Assembly: GCF_900683735.1 (NCBI RefSeq)
Contig: NZ_LR215979.1
Span: 2,480,001 to 2,544,000 of the forward strand
From: Fusobacterium ulcerans ATCC 49185
GTDB taxonomy: Bacteria > Fusobacteriota > Fusobacteriia > Fusobacteriales > Fusobacteriaceae
Reading direction: 5' to 3'
DNA: 64,000 nucleotides
Shown: piece by piece, positions 4,749-24,518 of the stretch
Layout of the letters: each line of letters begins with the position of its first letter
Numbering within the stretch: position 1 is the stretch's first letter
Made by a program: the position numbers and the translations under genes
The notes under the pieces: generated by a model
Told to the model about the DNA's origin: nothing
What the model saw: only the letters and a program-made list of their open reading frames with translations
Database searches by the model: none

Positions 4749-5766
4749 TTATTTTCCTTTCTTCATCCAGTATTTTAAACACTGCCTTTCGCAGAATACA
4801 ATCTTTATCTTCTGTTTCATATTTTTGATTATACAGCATTCTCGAAGGACAGCACCCTTTACAAATTTTCCTATATTCACATATATTACATCTTTCATAT
4901 TTCCCTGAAGATAATTTTTTCATCTCAATTTCTTCATCTATATTTCCCATATAATATTCTATATTTCCTACAAGAGAACTGCATGGATAAGTATCTCCAG
5001 CTGGAGTTACTACTATGGCCTGCCCCAATGACGAATAACAATAATTATCACTGCTGCACTCCATACATTCTCTCATTTTCGTTTCTTCTATTTCTCTTAT
5101 TCCTACTTTTTTTCCTGTGAGTTCTATAAGAAGCTGAATCTTTTCATATGCCTTTTTTATATTAATATAAATATCTCCATCATTTGGAGGTTTTATCTCT
5201 TTATTACTATTACAGTTTCCAGCAGTTCGTAAAAGATCAAGCCCTATTCCTCTTACATTTCCTAAGTAATATGCCATTTCTATTAATTTTTCAAGTTTTT
5301 CAATATTTTTATTAGTTACCACACAATTTATATTTATATCTTTTTTATACTCTCTAAGAAAATTTATCCCTTGAAGAACTTTTTTAGTTCCTCCCCTCAA
5401 CTCCTCATTAACAGCTACAGTTCCATCAAAACTAATTCCTATATTTATATCCATTTTTGCAAGTTTTTTGGCTATTTCTTCTGTTATCAATGTCCCATTG
5501 CTTTGGAGTCCTATCTTGCATTTATATCCATTTTCTTTCAAGTATTGATAAAGCTTTTCTATTACCTTGAAATTAAGCAGTGGTTCTCCCCCTGCCAATA
5601 TCAGAATAAAGTTTTTATTTTCACAAAGATTTATTGCTTTTTTAGCAGTTTCAAAAGACATTAATTTATGAGTAAATGCAGGGTGGGCATAGCAATATTT
5701 GCAATTTAAATTACAATCATCAGCCAGCCACAACACAAGATATTTAATATTTTTTTTACTCTTCAT
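4741..5766 (-). CDS. Radical SAM enzyme with SPASM-type C-terminal cluster domain
   Basis: The 341-residue protein has the radical-SAM cluster motif CNLNCKYC (C18, C22, C25), the AdoMet-binding GGEP at 59-62 and a C-terminal SPASM-type Cys array (C234, C237, C243, C262, C293, C296, C302, C305, C306, C323) likely to hold auxiliary 4Fe-4S clusters. SPASM enzymes modify peptides, but the related AhbC, AhbD and NirJ act on tetrapyrroles. The gene overlaps the cobN stop by 11 bases and the chlI start by eight, so it sits inside a chelatase cassette with no room for a precursor peptide. That favours a tetrapyrrole or corrinoid side-chain reaction, which is an inference. Its exact subfamily cannot be fixed without a profile search. 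Confidence 0.82.
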
Positions 5767-8700
5767 ATGCCTCTACATCACCTTCAATGCTTAAATATAT
5801 TTTTCTTAAACTTTCTAGTTTTTCTGGAGATGCACTCCACATATTTCTTTGATTAGCTTCTAAAAGCTTTTCAGCTATATTCATCACTGCATGTGGATTA
5901 TTTTCTTTTATCCACTCTCTGTTTTCTTCATTTTCAATATATTTTTCAGTTATTTTATCATACATCCAGTCTTCAGCTATCTCAGATGTTGCATCCCACC
6001 CAAAGAATATATCTACCATAAAACTTACTTCCTGAGCTCCTTTATATCCATGTCTCTTTAACCCCTCAAACCACTTTGGATTCAGTATTCTTGACCTCAT
6101 TATTTTGGCAGTTTCTTCTTTTAAACTTTTTATTTTTGTTGACTCTGGATCACTTGCATTTGCACTATATGAACGAGGATCTTTTCCACTGGCACATTTT
6201 ACTGCTGCTACCAATCCACCATGATATGTATAGTAATCATCACTTTCCAGCATATCTATTTCAACTGAACTTTCATTTTTTACTGTTATTTCTGACTTAG
6301 CCATTCTCTTAGTGAATATCTTTTCTACTTTGGTTCCATGATAGCTGCTTCCATAAGCATGACTGCTCCAATTTATATATGCTTTTCCTAAATCTTCTCT
6401 TGTTTCCCATTCCTTTGAATTGATAAGCACTCCCACCCCAGCGCCATAGGTACCTGGCGGACATCCAAAGACTCTCATTTTTGAAATATGTTCAGCTTCA
6501 CTCAATTGGTATCCCTCTTTTAAAAGCTCTTCTATCTCTTCATTCATATTTTTTCTAATGTAGTTTATTTCCTCAGGTTCATCTAATTGTGATACCAGAT
6601 TTACTGCTTCTTCTAATAATCTTATAAGAATTGGAAAAGTATCTCTGAATAATCCTGTTATCCTTAATGTTACATCTATTCTAGGTCTTTTCAATTCTTC
6701 ATAGGGAATAACTTCTAATCCTATTACTCTATCTCCATTATTCAGCCATATTGGTCTTACTCCCATAAGGTATAATGCTTCTGCAATATCATCTCCATTG
6801 GTTTTCATTGTTTCTCCACCATAGATCAACATAGCTATATTTTGAGGTATTTTCCCCTCATCCTCAATATATCTTTCTATAAGTTTATCTCCTAACTGCA
6901 TTCCTACTTTCCATGATGCTCTTGATGGAATTTTGTTAGGATCTATTGCATAAAAATTAGTTCCTGTAGGTAAAATATTTATATTTCCTCTTGTGGGACA
7001 TCCTGATTGTCCTGGAATAATAAATTTTCCCTCAGCACCTTTTATTGTACTTTCTTTTTCTCTTACTACTCCTCTTATTTTAGGTAAAACAGTTCCTAAT
7101 ATATTATTTCTAAGAGTTAAAATATATTTTCTATTTTTTACTTCATATCCTGAATATTCACCTTTTAATTCTGTTTTATTATCTGATAATATTTCTTTTA
7201 TGATATCTAAAGTTATATTTCTTATATCATCTAAAATCATAAGATTACTTTTTCCATTTTCAGAAAAATCATATGGCTCATTCTTCAATTGTTCCAAATC
7301 ATATCCCAAAGCTTTTCCAACAGATTTATCTGCTGCCAACATTCCACAGTTATCTATTCTCATAAGAGCTTGAATTAAAGTAGCACATCTATCTCCTTCT
7401 GCTGGTTCTCCTAATATATGAAGACCATCTTTGATTGTTGAACTTTTTAATTCCTCTATATATGAATGAAGCTTATTTATAAAGATCTTATAATCTTCTA
7501 AAACTTTTTCTTTGTCTAAATTCATATCCAAATTATAGTTATACTTAAACACTCTGTCTAATATATCCTTTTTAATTCCTTCCACTTTTGAATCTTTTGC
7601 ATTTTCAGCTTGATAATACTGCTTTATCAATTCATCTATTTCTTCTATGTCCTCATACTCTCCTGCTAAAGTAAGAGCTGGAATCATATATGATATGAGA
7701 GCTGCATAACTTCTTCTTTTAGCCTGTAATCCCTCACCTGTTACATTAATAGAATAATCATACAAATGTGGAATATCATCTATATTAAAATCTGGACAAC
7801 AACTGCTGCTTAATCCTATCTCTTTTCCTGGCAGCCATTCTAAAGTTCCATGAGTTCCCACATGATAAATCACATCTGCTTTAAATACTTCCTTTATCCA
7901 CTTATAAAAAGAATAATATTGATGGGGAATCATAAAATTTGTATTATGATACATTTCTTCTGCTCTGCATATCATCCCTCTTGCAGGCTGTAGTCCTATA
8001 AAAATATTTCCATTGAGTATCCCAGGAACTGGCAATACATCTTCATACACCATAAATTCTCCTGGACCTTTTCCCCATTGCTCCTCCATTTTCTTTTGAA
8101 CTTTTTCATCAAGCTGATCAAACCACTTCAAATATTTTTTCTTGTCTATTATATCTATACTTTTTTTTAATACCTTTTCAGAAGTTAACCATTTCTGATC
8201 ATTTGATACTCCTTTTATAATCTTCTGAATTATCTCATTTCCATCTTTAAATTTATATTCAGTTTTAATACCCATTTCATCAAAAGCTTCTACCATATTA
8301 TATACAGAATTAGGTGTATCCAATCCAAAGGCACACCCTATCATGTCATTTCTTGGAGGCATATTGTGAAATATTACTGCTATTTTTTTATCTTCATTCT
8401 TTTTTTGAGATAACCTCGCCCATCCCATAGCCATTCTTGCTATTTTATTTACTCTTTCATTAATTGGAATAAAAACAGACTTTTCTCCAAATTCATCTTT
8501 AATAATTTCATGAGTACAACAAGTAACTGAAATAATCTGTCCATCAAACTCTGGATAATAAACCCCTGTTGTAAGAGACATAGTATCCAATCCACGAACA
8601 TCTTCTTCCCATGTTTCTCTATTTTGATATGTAGTCATAGCTTGGATGACAGGAACTCCCATATCTTCAAATATACTTTTTTCTACTACAGATGTTCCAT

Positions 8701-9493
8701 CTCCAGGTTCATTAAATATACTTTGAGAATACCCAATAAGATTTATTATGACACTAGGTATAACTTTTTCATTTTTTTTGAAATAATTTTCTATTACCCA
8801 TTTTGTTCCCCTTGATTTTATAGATTGATCTGGAATAGAATTAGTAAAGACAACTAAAGGAATTCCACCTTCTCTTTTTATTTCTTCTATGAATTTATCT
8901 ATAACTTCCATTCTTCTACTCTGCCATTCTCGTCCATGAAAAAGTATTCCCACTATATTTTTTTCTTTTGCTATACTTTCAATAAATTTATCTGTATCTT
9001 TTACTATTTCTCCATTGGCATAAATTCCTTCCCATTGTGGATATTGACACTCTTCTATTTCATATTTATCTTTTCCTAGAGTATTGGCTGCATATAGAAT
9101 CATATTTCTATAATTCTTTTCTCCACCTAAAAGATAGTATTTGGTTAATTTGTCCTGTACTAAAGATGAAAGTCCTGAATTTGCAGTAAATTCTCTTGTT
9201 TCATCTTCTATTGTAGAATGTATAAAAAATGGTTTTTTCCCCTGAAATTTCTTTTTAAACATTAAAAACTTTTTAAATGTTGATATTCCTCCATGTATCA
9301 TCATACATATTAAATCACTTTTTTTAGTATGAGTTTCTAATTGATTGTATACTGCATCAGAAGAATCTATTTCAAAAGCTGTAAAAAATTTAAACTCAAA
9401 CTTTCCTTGATATTCTTTAGTTATAGAGCTGCATACTTTATTTAAACTATACATATTATCAAACATTGAAGTTATAAATATTATTTTAAACAT
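5756..9493 (-). CDS. cobN: CobN/ChlH-type chelatase large subunit (copy 1)
   Basis: At 1245 residues this matches the length of CobN, the large substrate-binding subunit of class I chelatases. The conserved stretch HVGTHGTLEW lies at 544-553, with IFIGLQPARG near 497-506 and PGQSGCPTRGN later on. CobN normally inserts Co(II) into hydrogenobyrinate diamide together with CobS/CobT or ChlI/ChlD. In Bacteroides a CobN homologue (HmuS) in a heme-uptake operon instead removes metal. Here it follows TonB, ABC and cbiZ genes under a cobalamin riboswitch and is followed by rSAM, chlI and chlD. No other corrin-ring synthesis gene is in the window. The ATG overlaps the cbiZ stop by eight bases, with GGGGGAA in front. 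Copy 2 at 15764-19504 is closely similar end to end. Confidence 0.9.
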   Translation of the reverse strand: MFKIIFITSMFDNMYSLNKVCSSITKEYQGKFEFKFFTAFEIDSSDAVYNQLETHTKKSDLICMMIHGGISTFKKFLMFKKKFQGKKPFFIHSTIEDETREFTANSGLSSLVQDKLTKYYLLGGEKNYRNMILYAANTLGKDKYEIEECQYPQWEGIYANGEIVKDTDKFIESIAKEKNIVGILFHGREWQSRRMEVIDKFIEEIKREGGIPLVVFTNSIPDQSIKSRGTKWVIENYFKKNEKVIPSVIINLIGYSQSIFNEPGDGTSVVEKSIFEDMGVPVIQAMTTYQNRETWEEDVRGLDTMSLTTGVYYPEFDGQIISVTCCTHEIIKDEFGEKSVFIPINERVNKIARMAMGWARLSQKKNEDKKIAVIFHNMPPRNDMIGCAFGLDTPNSVYNMVEAFDEMGIKTEYKFKDGNEIIQKIIKGVSNDQKWLTSEKVLKKSIDIIDKKKYLKWFDQLDEKVQKKMEEQWGKGPGEFMVYEDVLPVPGILNGNIFIGLQPARGMICRAEEMYHNTNFMIPHQYYSFYKWIKEVFKADVIYHVGTHGTLEWLPGKEIGLSSSCCPDFNIDDIPHLYDYSINVTGEGLQAKRRSYAALISYMIPALTLAGEYEDIEEIDELIKQYYQAENAKDSKVEGIKKDILDRVFKYNYNLDMNLDKEKVLEDYKIFINKLHSYIEELKSSTIKDGLHILGEPAEGDRCATLIQALMRIDNCGMLAADKSVGKALGYDLEQLKNEPYDFSENGKSNLMILDDIRNITLDIIKEILSDNKTELKGEYSGYEVKNRKYILTLRNNILGTVLPKIRGVVREKESTIKGAEGKFIIPGQSGCPTRGNINILPTGTNFYAIDPNKIPSRASWKVGMQLGDKLIERYIEDEGKIPQNIAMLIYGGETMKTNGDDIAEALYLMGVRPIWLNNGDRVIGLEVIPYEELKRPRIDVTLRITGLFRDTFPILIRLLEEAVNLVSQLDEPEEINYIRKNMNEEIEELLKEGYQLSEAEHISKMRVFGCPPGTYGAGVGVLINSKEWETREDLGKAYINWSSHAYGSSYHGTKVEKIFTKRMAKSEITVKNESSVEIDMLESDDYYTYHGGLVAAVKCASGKDPRSYSANASDPESTKIKSLKEETAKIMRSRILNPKWFEGLKRHGYKGAQEVSFMVDIFFGWDATSEIAEDWMYDKITEKYIENEENREWIKENNPHAVMNIAEKLLEANQRNMWSASPEKLESLRKIYLSIEGDVEAYEE

Positions 9494-15763: not shown

Positions 15764-18700
15764 TTACTCTTCATATTCCTCAATATCACCTTCTATGCTC
15801 ATATATATCTTCCTTAATTCATCAAGTTTTTCTTTTGAAGTATTCCACATTCCTCTTTGTTCAGCCTCTAATAACCTTTCAGTTATATTCATTAAAGCAT
15901 GAGGATTGTTTTCTTTTATCCATTCTCTATTTTCTATATTTTGCACATATTTCTCTGTTATTCTGTCATACATCCAGTCTTCTGCAACTTCAGCAGTGGC
16001 ATCCCAGCCAAACACAATATCTACCATTGCACTTACTTCCATGGCTCCTTTATATCCATGCCTTTTCAAACCTTCAAGCCATTTTGGATTTAGTATCCTT
16101 GATCTCATTATTCTTGCTGTTTCCTCTTTTAAACTTTTTATTTTCACATTATTTGGATCACTTGTATTTCCACTATAGGATCTTGCTTCTTTCCCACTGG
16201 CATATTTTACTGCTGCCGTTAATCCACCATGATATGCATAGTAATCATCGCTTTCCAACATATCTAACTCTACTGATGCTTCATTTTTTACTGTAACATC
16301 TATGTTTTTCAATCTTTTTACAAACATATTTTCTAATTTCGTTCCATGATAATTACTACTGTAGGCATGACTGCTCCAATTTATATATGCCTGACCTAAA
16401 TCATCTCTTGTTTCCCATTGTTGTGATTCTATTAATACTCTTACTCCTGTTCCATATGTTCCTGGTGGACATCCAAATATTCTGACTTTAGATAAGTTTT
16501 CAGCATCACTAAAACTGTATCCATCTTCCAAAAGTTTTTCTATATCATCTTTTAAGTTCTTTTTTATATAATTTACTTCATCACTCTCATCTAATTGAGA
16601 AACTGTATTTACAGCATCTTCTAAAAGCTTAATCAGAGTAGGAAAAGTATCTCTAAACAATCCAGATATTCTTAATGTTACATCTATTCTAGGTCTTCTC
16701 AGCTCTTCATAAGGAATAGCTTCTAGCCCTATTACTCTATCTCCATTGTTCAGCCATACTGGTTTTACTCCCATAAGATACAATGCTTCAGCTATATCAT
16801 CTCCATTAGTTTTTATTGTATCACCACTATATAGAATCATAGCAATATTCTTTGGCAGTTTTCCTTCATCTTCAATGTATCTGTTCATAAGTTCTTCTGC
16901 TAGTTTTATTCCTACTTTCCATGAAGCTCTTGATGGAATTTTATATGGATCAATAGAATAAAAATTTGTTCCTGTTGGAAGAATATTTATATTCCCTCTT
17001 GTTGGATATCCTGACTGTCCTGGAACAATAAACTTTCCATTAGCTCCATCTACTACACTTTTACTTTCTCTTTTTGTTTCCAATATTTTAGGCAATACTA
17101 TCTCTAAAATATTTTTTTCTAAAAGTAAAATATAGCTTTCATCTATTATTTTATATTCTTTTGTTTTTTCAACTACAGTTTGATATTTCTTTTCTCCTAA
17201 TATTTCCCTTACTATCTCTACTGTTATATTTCTTATATCATCCAGTATCATTAAATTAGTTTTTCCTATTTTATTATGTCCATGAGGATTTTCTTTTAAA
17301 ACTTCTATATCATACCCTAAACTCTTTCCTACTGCTTCTTCTGCCCCCATCATTCCACAGTTTTCAATTCTCAATAGAGCATGAATCAATGATGCTAATC
17401 TATCTCCTACAGGAGCCTCTCCCAATATGTGAAGTCCATCTTTTATTACTGAACTTTTGAGTTCTTCTATGTATGAGTGAAGTTTATTTATAAAAAGAGA
17501 ATAATTTTTTCTTATTTCTTCCTCAGTAATATTCATATCTAAATTATATTTATATTCTAATACTCTTTTTATAATATTCTCTTTCAAGTCTACTATTTTT
17601 GAATCTTTTCCTATTTCAGCCAGATAATACTGTTTAATCAAATCATCTATTTCTTCTATATCTTCATATTCTCCAGAAAGTGTAAGAGCAGGGATCATGT
17701 AGGAAATCAGCACTGCATTGCTTCTTCTTTTAGCCTGTAGTCCTTCTCCAGAAATATTTATTGAGTAAGGATATAGATGTGGAATATCATCTATATTAAA
17801 ATCTGGACAGCATCTGTTACTTAATCCAACCTCTTTCCCTGGCAGCCATTCTAAAGTTCCATGAGTTCCCACATGATAAATTACATCTGCTTTAAATCCC
17901 TCTTTTATCCACTTATAGAAAGAATAATATTGATGTGGAATAATAAAATCTGTACTGTGATATACCTCTTCTGCTTTTTCTTCCATACCTCTTGAAGGCT
18001 GTAATCCTATAAATATATTTCCATTAAGAATTCCAGGTACTGGAAATACATCTTCATAAATCATAAATTCCCCTGGAGCTTTTCCCCATTGAGCTTCTAT
18101 TTTTTCCTGTACCTCTCTATCTAATTTGGAAAACCACTCCAGATACTTTTCTTTGTTTATTTTATCAATACTTTTTTCCAAAACTTTTTCACTAGTCAGC
18201 CATTTTTTATCATTAGATACACCTTTAATAATAGTATTTATTATTTCATTTCCATCTTTAAATTCATGATCTATTTTTATCCCCATTTTTGAAAATAGTT
18301 TCATCATATTATTTACTGAATTAGGAGTATCAAGTCCAAAAGCTCTCCCTATCATATCATTTCTTGGAGGCATGTTATGAAGAATAACTGCTATTTTTTT
18401 ATCTTCATTCTTTTTCATTCCTAATTTTATCCAATTTACAGCTAATCTGGATATTTTATTTACTCTCTCATCTATTGGTATAAATATTTTTTTCTCTCCA
18501 TACTCATCTTTTATAGTTTCATAAGTACAACATGTTACAGAAATAATTTGTCCATCAAACTCTGGATAATAGACTCCTGTAGTTAAAGCTTCAGAATCAA
18601 GCCCCCTTATATCTCTTTCCCATGTTTCTCTATTTTGATAAGTACTCATAGCCTGTATTACAGGAATTTTTAAATCTTCAAAAATACTTTTTTCTACTAT

Positions 18701-19504
18701 TGTGGTTCCATCTCCAGGTTCACTAAAAATAGTTTGTGAGTATGCCATTAAGTTAATAATTGCTTTAGGTATTACTTTCCCTTTATGTTTTAAGTAATTT
18801 TCTATTACCCACTTTATTCCTTTTGATTTGATTTCTTGTTTCAAAATTGAATTTGTAAAAATAGGATAAGGAGTTACTCCTAATTTTTTTAACTCTTCTA
18901 TAAATTTATCCACTACCTTTATTCGTTTACTATTCCATTCTTTTCCATGAAATAAAATAGCAACTACTATGGGCTCTTCTGCTATTTTCTTAATAAAATT
19001 CTCCTCATCTTCAACTATGTCTCCATCCTTATATATTCCTTCCCATCTCATATAAGTGTATTTTTCATATGGATATTTTTTATTCCCCAGCTCTGAAGCT
19101 GTATAGAGAATCATATTCTTATAATTCTCTTCTCCCCCTAAAGTATAATATTTTGTCATATTATATGCTGTTGCTGCTGGCATTCCTCCCTGTTCAACAA
19201 ACTCTCTATTTTCATCATCAATTGTAGTATTAATAAAAAATGGGATACTTCCCCAAAATGTTTTTTTTAGATTTATAAATTTTTTAAAGCTTGAAACTCC
19301 TCCATGTAGAAGAATATAAACTATATTGCTTGTTCTTATTTCATTTTCAAGTTTTCTATATTCCTCATCAGACTTATCCACTGTATTAGATTTAAAAAAA
19401 CTAAATTCAAAATCACCACAATGTTCTTCTGTTAGCTTTTTACATATCTTGTTAAATGTATAACTATTATCATAGTTTGATGTAACCAAAGTAATTTTAA
19501 ACAT
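15764..19504 (-). CDS. cobN: CobN/ChlH-type chelatase large subunit (copy 2)
   Basis: The 1246-residue protein aligns with copy 1 over its full length, including HVGTHGTLEW near residue 545, the GLQPSRG segment and the C-terminal WLEGLKRHGYKGAMEVSAMVD region, so it is an intact class I chelatase H subunit rather than a relic. Differences are spread over the protein and are densest in the middle linker (about residues 640-830). The gene starts 21 bases after binding protein 2, with AAGGAG in front. No chlI or chlD follows; the gene ends 79 bases before the operon A promoter, with no clear terminator. It must either use the ChlI/ChlD of operon A or act without them. Substrate specialisation against copy 1 is plausible but unproven. 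Confidence 0.9.
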   Translation of the reverse strand: MFKITLVTSNYDNSYTFNKICKKLTEEHCGDFEFSFFKSNTVDKSDEEYRKLENEIRTSNIVYILLHGGVSSFKKFINLKKTFWGSIPFFINTTIDDENREFVEQGGMPAATAYNMTKYYTLGGEENYKNMILYTASELGNKKYPYEKYTYMRWEGIYKDGDIVEDEENFIKKIAEEPIVVAILFHGKEWNSKRIKVVDKFIEELKKLGVTPYPIFTNSILKQEIKSKGIKWVIENYLKHKGKVIPKAIINLMAYSQTIFSEPGDGTTIVEKSIFEDLKIPVIQAMSTYQNRETWERDIRGLDSEALTTGVYYPEFDGQIISVTCCTYETIKDEYGEKKIFIPIDERVNKISRLAVNWIKLGMKKNEDKKIAVILHNMPPRNDMIGRAFGLDTPNSVNNMMKLFSKMGIKIDHEFKDGNEIINTIIKGVSNDKKWLTSEKVLEKSIDKINKEKYLEWFSKLDREVQEKIEAQWGKAPGEFMIYEDVFPVPGILNGNIFIGLQPSRGMEEKAEEVYHSTDFIIPHQYYSFYKWIKEGFKADVIYHVGTHGTLEWLPGKEVGLSNRCCPDFNIDDIPHLYPYSINISGEGLQAKRRSNAVLISYMIPALTLSGEYEDIEEIDDLIKQYYLAEIGKDSKIVDLKENIIKRVLEYKYNLDMNITEEEIRKNYSLFINKLHSYIEELKSSVIKDGLHILGEAPVGDRLASLIHALLRIENCGMMGAEEAVGKSLGYDIEVLKENPHGHNKIGKTNLMILDDIRNITVEIVREILGEKKYQTVVEKTKEYKIIDESYILLLEKNILEIVLPKILETKRESKSVVDGANGKFIVPGQSGYPTRGNINILPTGTNFYSIDPYKIPSRASWKVGIKLAEELMNRYIEDEGKLPKNIAMILYSGDTIKTNGDDIAEALYLMGVKPVWLNNGDRVIGLEAIPYEELRRPRIDVTLRISGLFRDTFPTLIKLLEDAVNTVSQLDESDEVNYIKKNLKDDIEKLLEDGYSFSDAENLSKVRIFGCPPGTYGTGVRVLIESQQWETRDDLGQAYINWSSHAYSSNYHGTKLENMFVKRLKNIDVTVKNEASVELDMLESDDYYAYHGGLTAAVKYASGKEARSYSGNTSDPNNVKIKSLKEETARIMRSRILNPKWLEGLKRHGYKGAMEVSAMVDIVFGWDATAEVAEDWMYDRITEKYVQNIENREWIKENNPHALMNITERLLEAEQRGMWNTSKEKLDELRKIYMSIEGDIEEYEE

Positions 19505-23015: not shown

Positions 23016-23044
23016 TTGACTTTCAAAGAAAATTAATATATTAT
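23016..23044 (+). promoter_or_regulatory. Promoter of the orphan riboswitch gene
   Basis: TTGACT at 23016-23021 and TATTAT at 23039-23044 have a 17-base spacer and point rightwards into the plus-strand riboswitch. The 204 bases between this promoter and the divergent operon B promoter are AT-rich and show no other feature. Confidence 0.75.
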
Positions 23045-23071
23045 TTGATCAAGAACACTACAATAAAATAT

Positions 23072-23242
23072 TTATTTTTTGGTTCTAGTTATTACTAGAT
23101 TAAAAGGGAAACAGGTTTAAATCCTGTACGGTCCCGCCACTGTAATGAGGATGAAAGCAAATTGCCACTGAAATATAACTATATATTTTGGGAAGGTATG
23201 CAAGTAAAGTGATTCTAAGTCAGGAGACCTGCCATAAAATAA
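23072..23242 (+). promoter_or_regulatory. Cobalamin riboswitch (plus strand, orphan gene)
   Basis: The conserved blocks are AAAAGGGAAACAGG, AAATCCTG followed by GGTCCCGCCACTGT, GATGAAAGCAAATTGCCACTG, TTGGGAAGGT and CTAAGTCAGGAGACCTGCC. The flanks TTATTTT and AAAATAA can pair as helix P1. This is a full-length canonical cobalamin aptamer, distinct in detail from the two duplicated minus-strand ones. Confidence 0.95.
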
Positions 23243-23265
23243 TATTATATGCTGCTCACGAGGAT

Positions 23266-23329
23266 GAGAAGTATAAAAGAATAAAATCTTTTATGCTTCT
23301 CTTATTTTTTAAGAGAAGTTTTTTATTTT
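23266..23329 (+). terminator. Two mutually exclusive hairpins, riboswitch expression platform
   Basis: Hairpin one pairs GAGAAGTATAAAAGA (from 23266) with TCTTTTATGCTTCTC (to 23301). Hairpin two pairs CTTCTCTTA (23296-23304) with TAAGAGAAG (to 23318) and is followed by TTTTTTATTTT. They share CTTCTC, so only one can form at a time. The second is the terminator; the first would act as antiterminator or as an alternative stop, since it too is followed by T-rich sequence. Confidence 0.75.
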
Positions 23330-23358
23330 AACAGATTTTATCTATCAAGGAGGATATT

Positions 23359-23775
23359 ATGATTTTAAAAGAATTAAAAGAAATATTTGAAGAAATGCTC
23401 ACAAAAGGAGAATGGAAAAATAATGTGCTACTTAATATGGAATTATCCCAATATTCAAAACATCATATTCCTATTGATATTATTTTAAAAGGAAAAGACA
23501 ATAAAGGAAATAATTTATATGTAATAGGAAATAAAAATGAGCTTGAATTTCCTAATTTTTTTCCTGAAGAAATTATCAAAACTTATAATCATATCCCCAG
23601 TCTTTTAGAATTATATTATGATATTTTTATTAATAAAAGTTTATCTTTAAATCCAGAAACAAAATTATTTTTGTCCATTGATTATGAAAAATATTTTAAT
23701 TTAGGAAATGTGGCTTCTATTGAAAGTATTAAAAAAGTATTTTCTTTTGATGATACTGTTTTGATTTCTAATTAA
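23359..23775 (+). CDS. Unrecognised 138-residue protein under cobalamin riboswitch control
   Basis: I do not recognise this family. The gene starts at ATG 23359 after AAGGAGGATATT and ends before a strong terminator, so it is a genuine one-gene unit behind a full cobalamin riboswitch. The protein is acidic, has no signal peptide, membrane segment or Cys, and begins with a helix-like MILKELKEIFEEMLTKGEW. The middle (residues about 40-65) reads as two beta strands around KGKDNKGNNLYVIGN, and it has one or more helical stretches near IPSLLELYYDIFINK. It could be a cytoplasmic adaptor, a small chaperone or a substrate-binding protein for corrinoid metabolism, but nothing in the sequence fixes the role. 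Confidence 0.75.
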   Translation: MILKELKEIFEEMLTKGEWKNNVLLNMELSQYSKHHIPIDIILKGKDNKGNNLYVIGNKNELEFPNFFPEEIIKTYNHIPSLLELYYDIFINKSLSLNPETKLFLSIDYEKYFNLGNVASIESIKKVFSFDDTVLISN

Positions 23776-23786
23776 TAATATTCACT

Positions 23787-23820
23787 AAAAAGGCTCTTCC
23801 ACATTGGAAGAGCCTTTTTT
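23787..23820 (+). terminator. Rho-independent terminator after the orphan gene
   Basis: GGCTCTTCC and GGAAGAGCC form a perfect nine-pair stem around ACATT, followed by TTTTTT. The A-run in front also makes it usable from the opposite strand. Confidence 0.93.
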
Positions 23821-23852: not shown

Positions 23853-24076
23853 TTTAAAATAGCCCAATTAAGGGCTACTTTAAGTTTAAATTACACAGAA
23901 TTAAATATTATATATTAATCGCATATAACCAGAAGAAAATGTGATTAAAAACCTATTATTTGGGGTTCCACCAATAACTTCTTATCTGGTCAAAGTAAAA
24001 AATTATTGGTGGGAAAATTAATTGACGTATAAACACATTACCTGGGGGGTAATGCAGCCATGAATTTCTTCTTGGT
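23853..24076 (-). ncRNA. Candidate structured small RNA, possibly 6S-like
   Basis: This noncoding stretch contains three perfect or near-perfect stems: CATTACC/GGTAATG (24036-24054), CCACCAATAA/TTATTGGTGG (23968-24012) and TAATC-CAT/ATG-GATTA (23915-23946), plus TAGCCC/GGGCTA (23860-23877) followed on the minus strand by TATTTTAAATT as a terminator. A strong minus-strand promoter lies at 24083-24111. The predicted transcript of about 215-225 bases begins near ATTACCAAGAAGAAA, which can pair with TTTTCTTCTGGT near 23928-23939 to close the molecule into one long rod with an internal bubble. That shape and size fit 6S RNA, but I cannot confirm the family. The plus-strand reading also folds, with a G-U pair where the minus strand has a mismatch, so strand assignment rests on the promoter and terminator. 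Confidence 0.5.
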
Positions 24077-24082
24077 AATATC

Positions 24083-24111
24083 ATTATATAATATAAATAT
24101 TTTTTATACAA
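24083..24111 (-). promoter_or_regulatory. Promoter of the candidate small RNA
   Basis: TTGTAT (24111-24106, minus strand) and a consensus TATAAT (24088-24083) are separated by exactly 17 bases. No coding gene follows on this strand for over a kilobase, so the promoter points to the structured segment. Confidence 0.65.
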
Positions 24112-24518
24112 GCATATACAACATAAATAAATATATAAGTTTTAGACTTTATGAATTGACTTAATAAATAGAATTTTATAAATTTGCTCTTAAGAAATAG
24201 ATTTTAAATAAAAAAATTAAATATAATATATTCACCAAAGTAAATAATTTATTACCAAAAATAGAAAAATAAATTGAAAAAAAGAATCTTATAATTATAA
24301 AATATATATAAAAATAAACAAAATATATTATTGTATTTATTTTATTTATGTTATATACTTATAGTGAAAGAATAAAATTGTAATGTTAACTAAAATTTTT
24401 AATAAAGTAAAAAGTTATTGCTTTGTTTCTTAAAGCCCTAAATGGTATACTTACCTTAAAATATTATTTTTACAAAATAATAAAGGACAACAATGAAGTT
24501 GCTTTTTATTATAAACAC
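24112..24518. other. AT-rich intergenic stretch with no recognisable gene
   Basis: This stretch is almost pure A/T with no open frame of note. Near its right end CAAC-AATGAA-GTTG (24488-24501) followed by CTTTTTATT looks like a weaker copy of the adjacent terminator at 24519-24551. Nothing else is seen. Confidence 0.6.

Follow-up and report, generated by a model that had tools for sequence, protein, structure and literature searches.

What might a cobalamin riboswitch control when the gene behind it encodes a protein that resembles nothing known? The locus that raises this question lies in the window, the whole 64,000-nucleotide stretch of DNA analysed here, which belongs to a closed genome of 3.84 Mb. 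One of its transposases matches an F. varium plasmid at 98.4%, suggesting a Fusobacterium close to that species. A first-pass annotation had described it as a complete unit at positions 23072–23820. The unit itself stood up to analysis, while its 5′ boundary had cut off a few bases of the aptamer, which starts at 23063. The following features, all on the + strand, make up the locus:

23016..23044, +: sigma-70-like promoter TTGACT-17-TATTAT (pattern match only, 10 of 12 positions)
23063–23250, +: cobalamin riboswitch aptamer RF00174 (Rfam match, 117 bits)
23132..23136, +: L5 loop UCCCG, proposed kissing partner of L13 (Rfam consensus alignment; predicted pairing)
23255..23268, +: P13 hairpin CUCA-CGAGGA-UGAG (read from the sequence; its 3′ strand overlaps the antiterminator)
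23266..23301, +: antiterminator hairpin (hairpin search and folding)
23295..23319, +: intrinsic terminator hairpin followed by a T run (hairpin search and folding)
23347..23353, +: Shine-Dalgarno sequence AAGGAGG (sequence; spacer of 5 to the ATG at 23359)
23359..23775, +: 138-codon orphan protein gene (open reading frame with ATG at 23359; selection against its relative)
23787..23820, +: terminator hairpin 3′ of the gene (sequence; window species only, absent in G001)
23860..23877, +: weaker hairpin (conserved in G000, G001 and G002)

A full-length cobalamin aptamer with a terminator-type expression platform

Rfam detected four cobalamin riboswitches in the window, of which the one at 23063–23250 is the strongest. 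It matched model positions 1–189 of 189 at 117 bits (E 1.1e-28), far above the RF00174 gathering cut-off of 31.5 bits, in agreement with the full canonical aptamer that had been annotated. The block carrying the sigma-70-like promoter is kept in G001, the genome that also holds the only homologue of the downstream gene.

The region contains five terminator-like sites where 0.3 would be expected, and the CGAGGA of P13 is kept in five related leaders. Since the hairpins at 23266–23301 and 23295–23319 have bases in common, they are mutually exclusive. In computed folds, the unconstrained minimum of the target leader was the long antiterminator (–24.0 kcal/mol). When P13 was forced with its loop unpaired—a constraint that mimics the kissing contact with L5—the minimum became P13, a short hairpin and the terminator (–22.0 kcal/mol), a swap that costs only 2 kcal/mol. 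Forcing P13 exchanged antiterminator for terminator in four of five leaders tested, namely those with an intact P13: the leaders of the target and of three TonB-receptor genes, two in G001 and one in G004. The P13 stem of the G001 orthologue leader, as written, has a mismatch; its forced fold fell short of the full terminator and did not repeat the swap. Inspection of the sequence and of the Rfam alignment by eye suggests that L5 (UCCCG) pairs with L13 (CG(A)GGA), leaving one A bulged. In a longer fold of the target leader (to 23345), the terminator form was the minimum; the two states are thus close in energy and the outcome is set by the transcript end, which fits a switch acting cotranscriptionally.

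The two-hairpin switch of the first-pass annotation is therefore reproduced computationally, and the element is very probably a riboswitch of the OFF type that acts by transcription termination; its response to the ligand is predicted from this architecture. Without ligand, a 15-bp antiterminator would form and the gene would be read. With ligand, L5 would kiss L13 and P13 would form, removing the base of the antiterminator so that the terminator could halt transcription. The 138-codon protein would accordingly be B12-repressed, that is, made when cobalamin is scarce. As a riboswitch, the element is of a known kind and differs in nothing essential from RF00174 terminator-type OFF switches, with which it shares the full-length aptamer, the L5/L13 elements, the antiterminator–terminator swap and a B12-locus gene downstream. 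Only the regulated gene is new.

The open reading frame is a real gene for an orphan protein

Lack of homologues, and nothing else, would favour the view that the open reading frame is not a gene and that the riboswitch ends in a short regulatory RNA. This is highly improbable given the codon-position pattern, the dN/dS ratio, the good ribosome site and a length that is unlikely by chance. Among 2000 random sequences of 2.1 kb with matched dinucleotide composition, one contained an open reading frame as long as 138 codons, and the annotated ribosome site was found as AAGGAGG at 23347–23353 with a spacer of 5. The sole homologue among 61 relatives, in G001, aligns without gaps over 138 residues at 81% identity. 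Of the 58 base differences between the two genes, 29 fall in third positions (dN 0.094, dS 0.50, dN/dS 0.19; Fisher p 1.6e-8 for purifying selection, on rounded counts), and there are no indels in the 138 codons, compared with many in the flanks. On these grounds, 23359–23775 is a real gene, and the claim of one small gene holds. The strong terminator said to close the unit is present at 23787–23820, yet the relative lacks it.

The encoded protein has a mass of 16 kDa and a pI of about 5. As annotated, it contains neither a membrane segment (maximum 19-residue hydropathy 0.84) nor Cys (none in the window species, one in the G001 orthologue), nor a signal peptide or lipobox of the kind that serves BtuH-like secretion, as judged by the missing Cys, the lack of a hydrophobic N-terminus and the hydropathy. 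A single-sequence AlphaFold model had a mean pLDDT of 37.6 and was unusable. Sequence and profile searches of Pfam, NCBIfam, PHROGs, PADLOC and PDB returned nothing significant, in line with the earlier statement that the protein resembles nothing known, and no profile of the known corrinoid or cobalt families in Pfam and NCBIfam matched above its cut-off. Homology and motifs yielded no corrinoid link, and the papers found on cobalamin riboswitches in Fusobacterium say nothing about this gene. The protein is thus a new orphan without a recognised relative.

One candidate family, DUF3189 (PF11385), gave a weak match of 22–25 residues around GKDNKGNNLYVIG in both orthologues (14 and 15 bits); it was traced across the phylum and dropped. 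The scores lie below the 23.2-bit cut-off, and the remainder of the protein is unmatched.

Narrow distribution and loss

A profile of the two sequences found no credible further member in the other 96 of 98 Fusobacteriota genomes. Its matches (best E 6.5e-5) were attributed to chance, the best lying inside a MurD-like protein and another inside a UvrC-like one (named by eye). Viral contigs, phages and plasmids contained no relative, and neither did a collection of 84,980 species genomes in two pattern-based scans; these reach close relatives only, so that distant homologues may exist elsewhere.

A third species, G002, retains an intact right flank (76% over 618 bases). On the left, the sequence from the promoter into the aptamer start is kept, after which the riboswitch remainder and the gene are missing, a pattern best read as deletion of an ancestral riboswitch–gene unit. 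The locus appears to be absent from G003, where only the copy of the right-flank element at its other locus was seen. Being present in two species and lost in a third, the gene is dispensable, accessory and narrowly distributed.

Such a pattern, together with the lack of relatives elsewhere in the genomes searched, could fit a lineage-specific orphan with little function left, whose riboswitch has survived its original target gene. We regard this as unlikely: a dN/dS of 0.19 and an indel-free coding sequence between indel-rich flanks speak against decay, and riboswitch, platform and ribosome site have all been retained.

The neighbourhood points to corrinoid and cobalt acquisition

The unit sits in a corrinoid/cobalt acquisition region of the window. 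To its left, on the opposite strand and behind their own riboswitch, lie genes for a TonB receptor, a periplasmic binding protein (BtuF-type) and CobN; to its right is an Opp-type ABC operon, again with its own riboswitch. In G001, a divergent operon of NifH-like and NifD-like genes with an ABC transporter takes the place of this left neighbour. Proximity to cobN, one of the associations considered in the first-pass annotation, is therefore not stable; what accompanies the gene in both genomes is its own riboswitch and the Opp operon. Both homologues follow the same cobalamin riboswitch (2/2), and as orthologues at one locus they amount to a single evolutionary observation.

Two open reading frames of nearly equal length occur in the window, at 5756–9493 and 15764–19504 (1245 and 1246 aa). 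The second is CobN, and the first may be a CobN paralogue.

We favour the reading that an OFF riboswitch here controls a B12-repressed, small, soluble and cytoplasmic accessory of corrinoid/cobalt acquisition: its regulation and its genomic surroundings concur, and no result speaks against it. The first-pass proposal of a candidate new corrinoid gene is thus plausible and partly supported. For this statement as a whole, its function read from regulation and neighbourhood only, we estimate a probability of about 0.5. Such a protein, presumably cytoplasmic and retained in a few Fusobacterium species, could act in binding or trafficking or modulate the neighbouring uptake and processing systems. 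A bolder version, in which it would define a new fold or family and act as a corrinoid- or cobalt-binding protein of the Fusobacterium cytoplasm—for example handing imported corrinoid to, or regulating, the neighbouring CobN-like and nitrogenase-like proteins—seems improbable.

Precedent comes from the cobamide-transport loci of Bacteroidetes, which contain BtuH and other variable accessory proteins, BtuH having been proved to bind B12 (PMC8941943). There too, lineage-patchy and formerly unrecognised genes occur in riboswitch-bearing transport loci (PMC8941943), and by analogy patchy genes of such loci can prove to be B12-binding. BtuH, however, is a large surface lipoprotein and unrelated to the protein studied here, which has 138 residues, no signal or lipobox and its own transcription unit.

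Genes behind cobalamin riboswitches across the genus

A survey of 79 cobalamin riboswitches in 12 genomes of the genus scored the first downstream gene coding for 100 aa or more, names being assigned by eye apart from those checked by profile; each of the four largest genus genomes searched carried 9–15 such riboswitches. First genes encoded TonB receptors (22), BtuF-type proteins (12), CbiP (10), CbiK-like proteins (10), MORN-repeat proteins (7), ExbB-like proteins (6), Opp permeases (3), an unassigned 324-aa protein (3), NifH-like proteins (2) and the target (2), with two left unassigned. The expectation that genes under B12 riboswitches nearly always serve corrinoids or cobalt thus applies to most of the 79, but not evidently to the seven before a MORN-repeat gene of no recognised role. 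With this family behind such riboswitches as well, regulation alone is no proof of a corrinoid role.

These observations bear on a second reading, in which the riboswitch is functional and the protein acts outside corrinoid acquisition in a way that is useful when B12 is scarce: it might protect or replace a B12-dependent step, or serve in competition or at the surface, having been captured by a mobile riboswitch module. Near-unchanged riboswitch modules do recur before unrelated genes in the genus, and the target aptamer and that of the MORN-repeat gene in the same genome share 90% identity over 155 nt. With corrinoid/cobalt uptake on both sides of the unit, and with the nearest relatives of the whole leader (aptamer and platform) preceding TonB-receptor genes in G001 and G004, we consider this reading possible and less likely than a role in acquisition.

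The protein is a modest new lead for B12 biology, the riboswitch providing a sharp condition, cobalamin limitation, for a protein without a recognised relative. The roles of this protein and of the MORN-repeat protein would tell whether orphans of this kind add to corrinoid acquisition or B12 governs further traits in Fusobacterium. Both are unrecognised soluble proteins behind nearly identical aptamers; the MORN-repeat gene differs in its unrelated sequence, wider distribution and two further small genes downstream.

Several side observations emerged. The MORN_2-repeat protein (about 248 aa), followed by two small genes, has a cobalamin riboswitch upstream in seven genomes (L059:7743-8902, G000:C1 near 905,742; relatives in G001–G005 and G007). 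NifH-like and nitrogenase-component-1-like genes lie behind cobalamin riboswitches, with BtuF-type transport genes alongside, at L053:9354-11670 (G001), L065:803-3665 (G002) and L078 (G004). In three species (L061, G000:C1:708254 on; L066; L069), the gene for the 324-aa protein lies between a cobalamin riboswitch, which it directly follows, and a TonB receptor gene.

Just past the orphan gene, a noncoding element at 23958–24150 is conserved at 75–77% identity in three species and has a second copy in each genome, close to a sir2-like gene (G000:C1:915083-915448, L118). It matched no Rfam family and is possibly a novel structured RNA; across seven copies, compensatory changes affect three pairs of its first hairpin.
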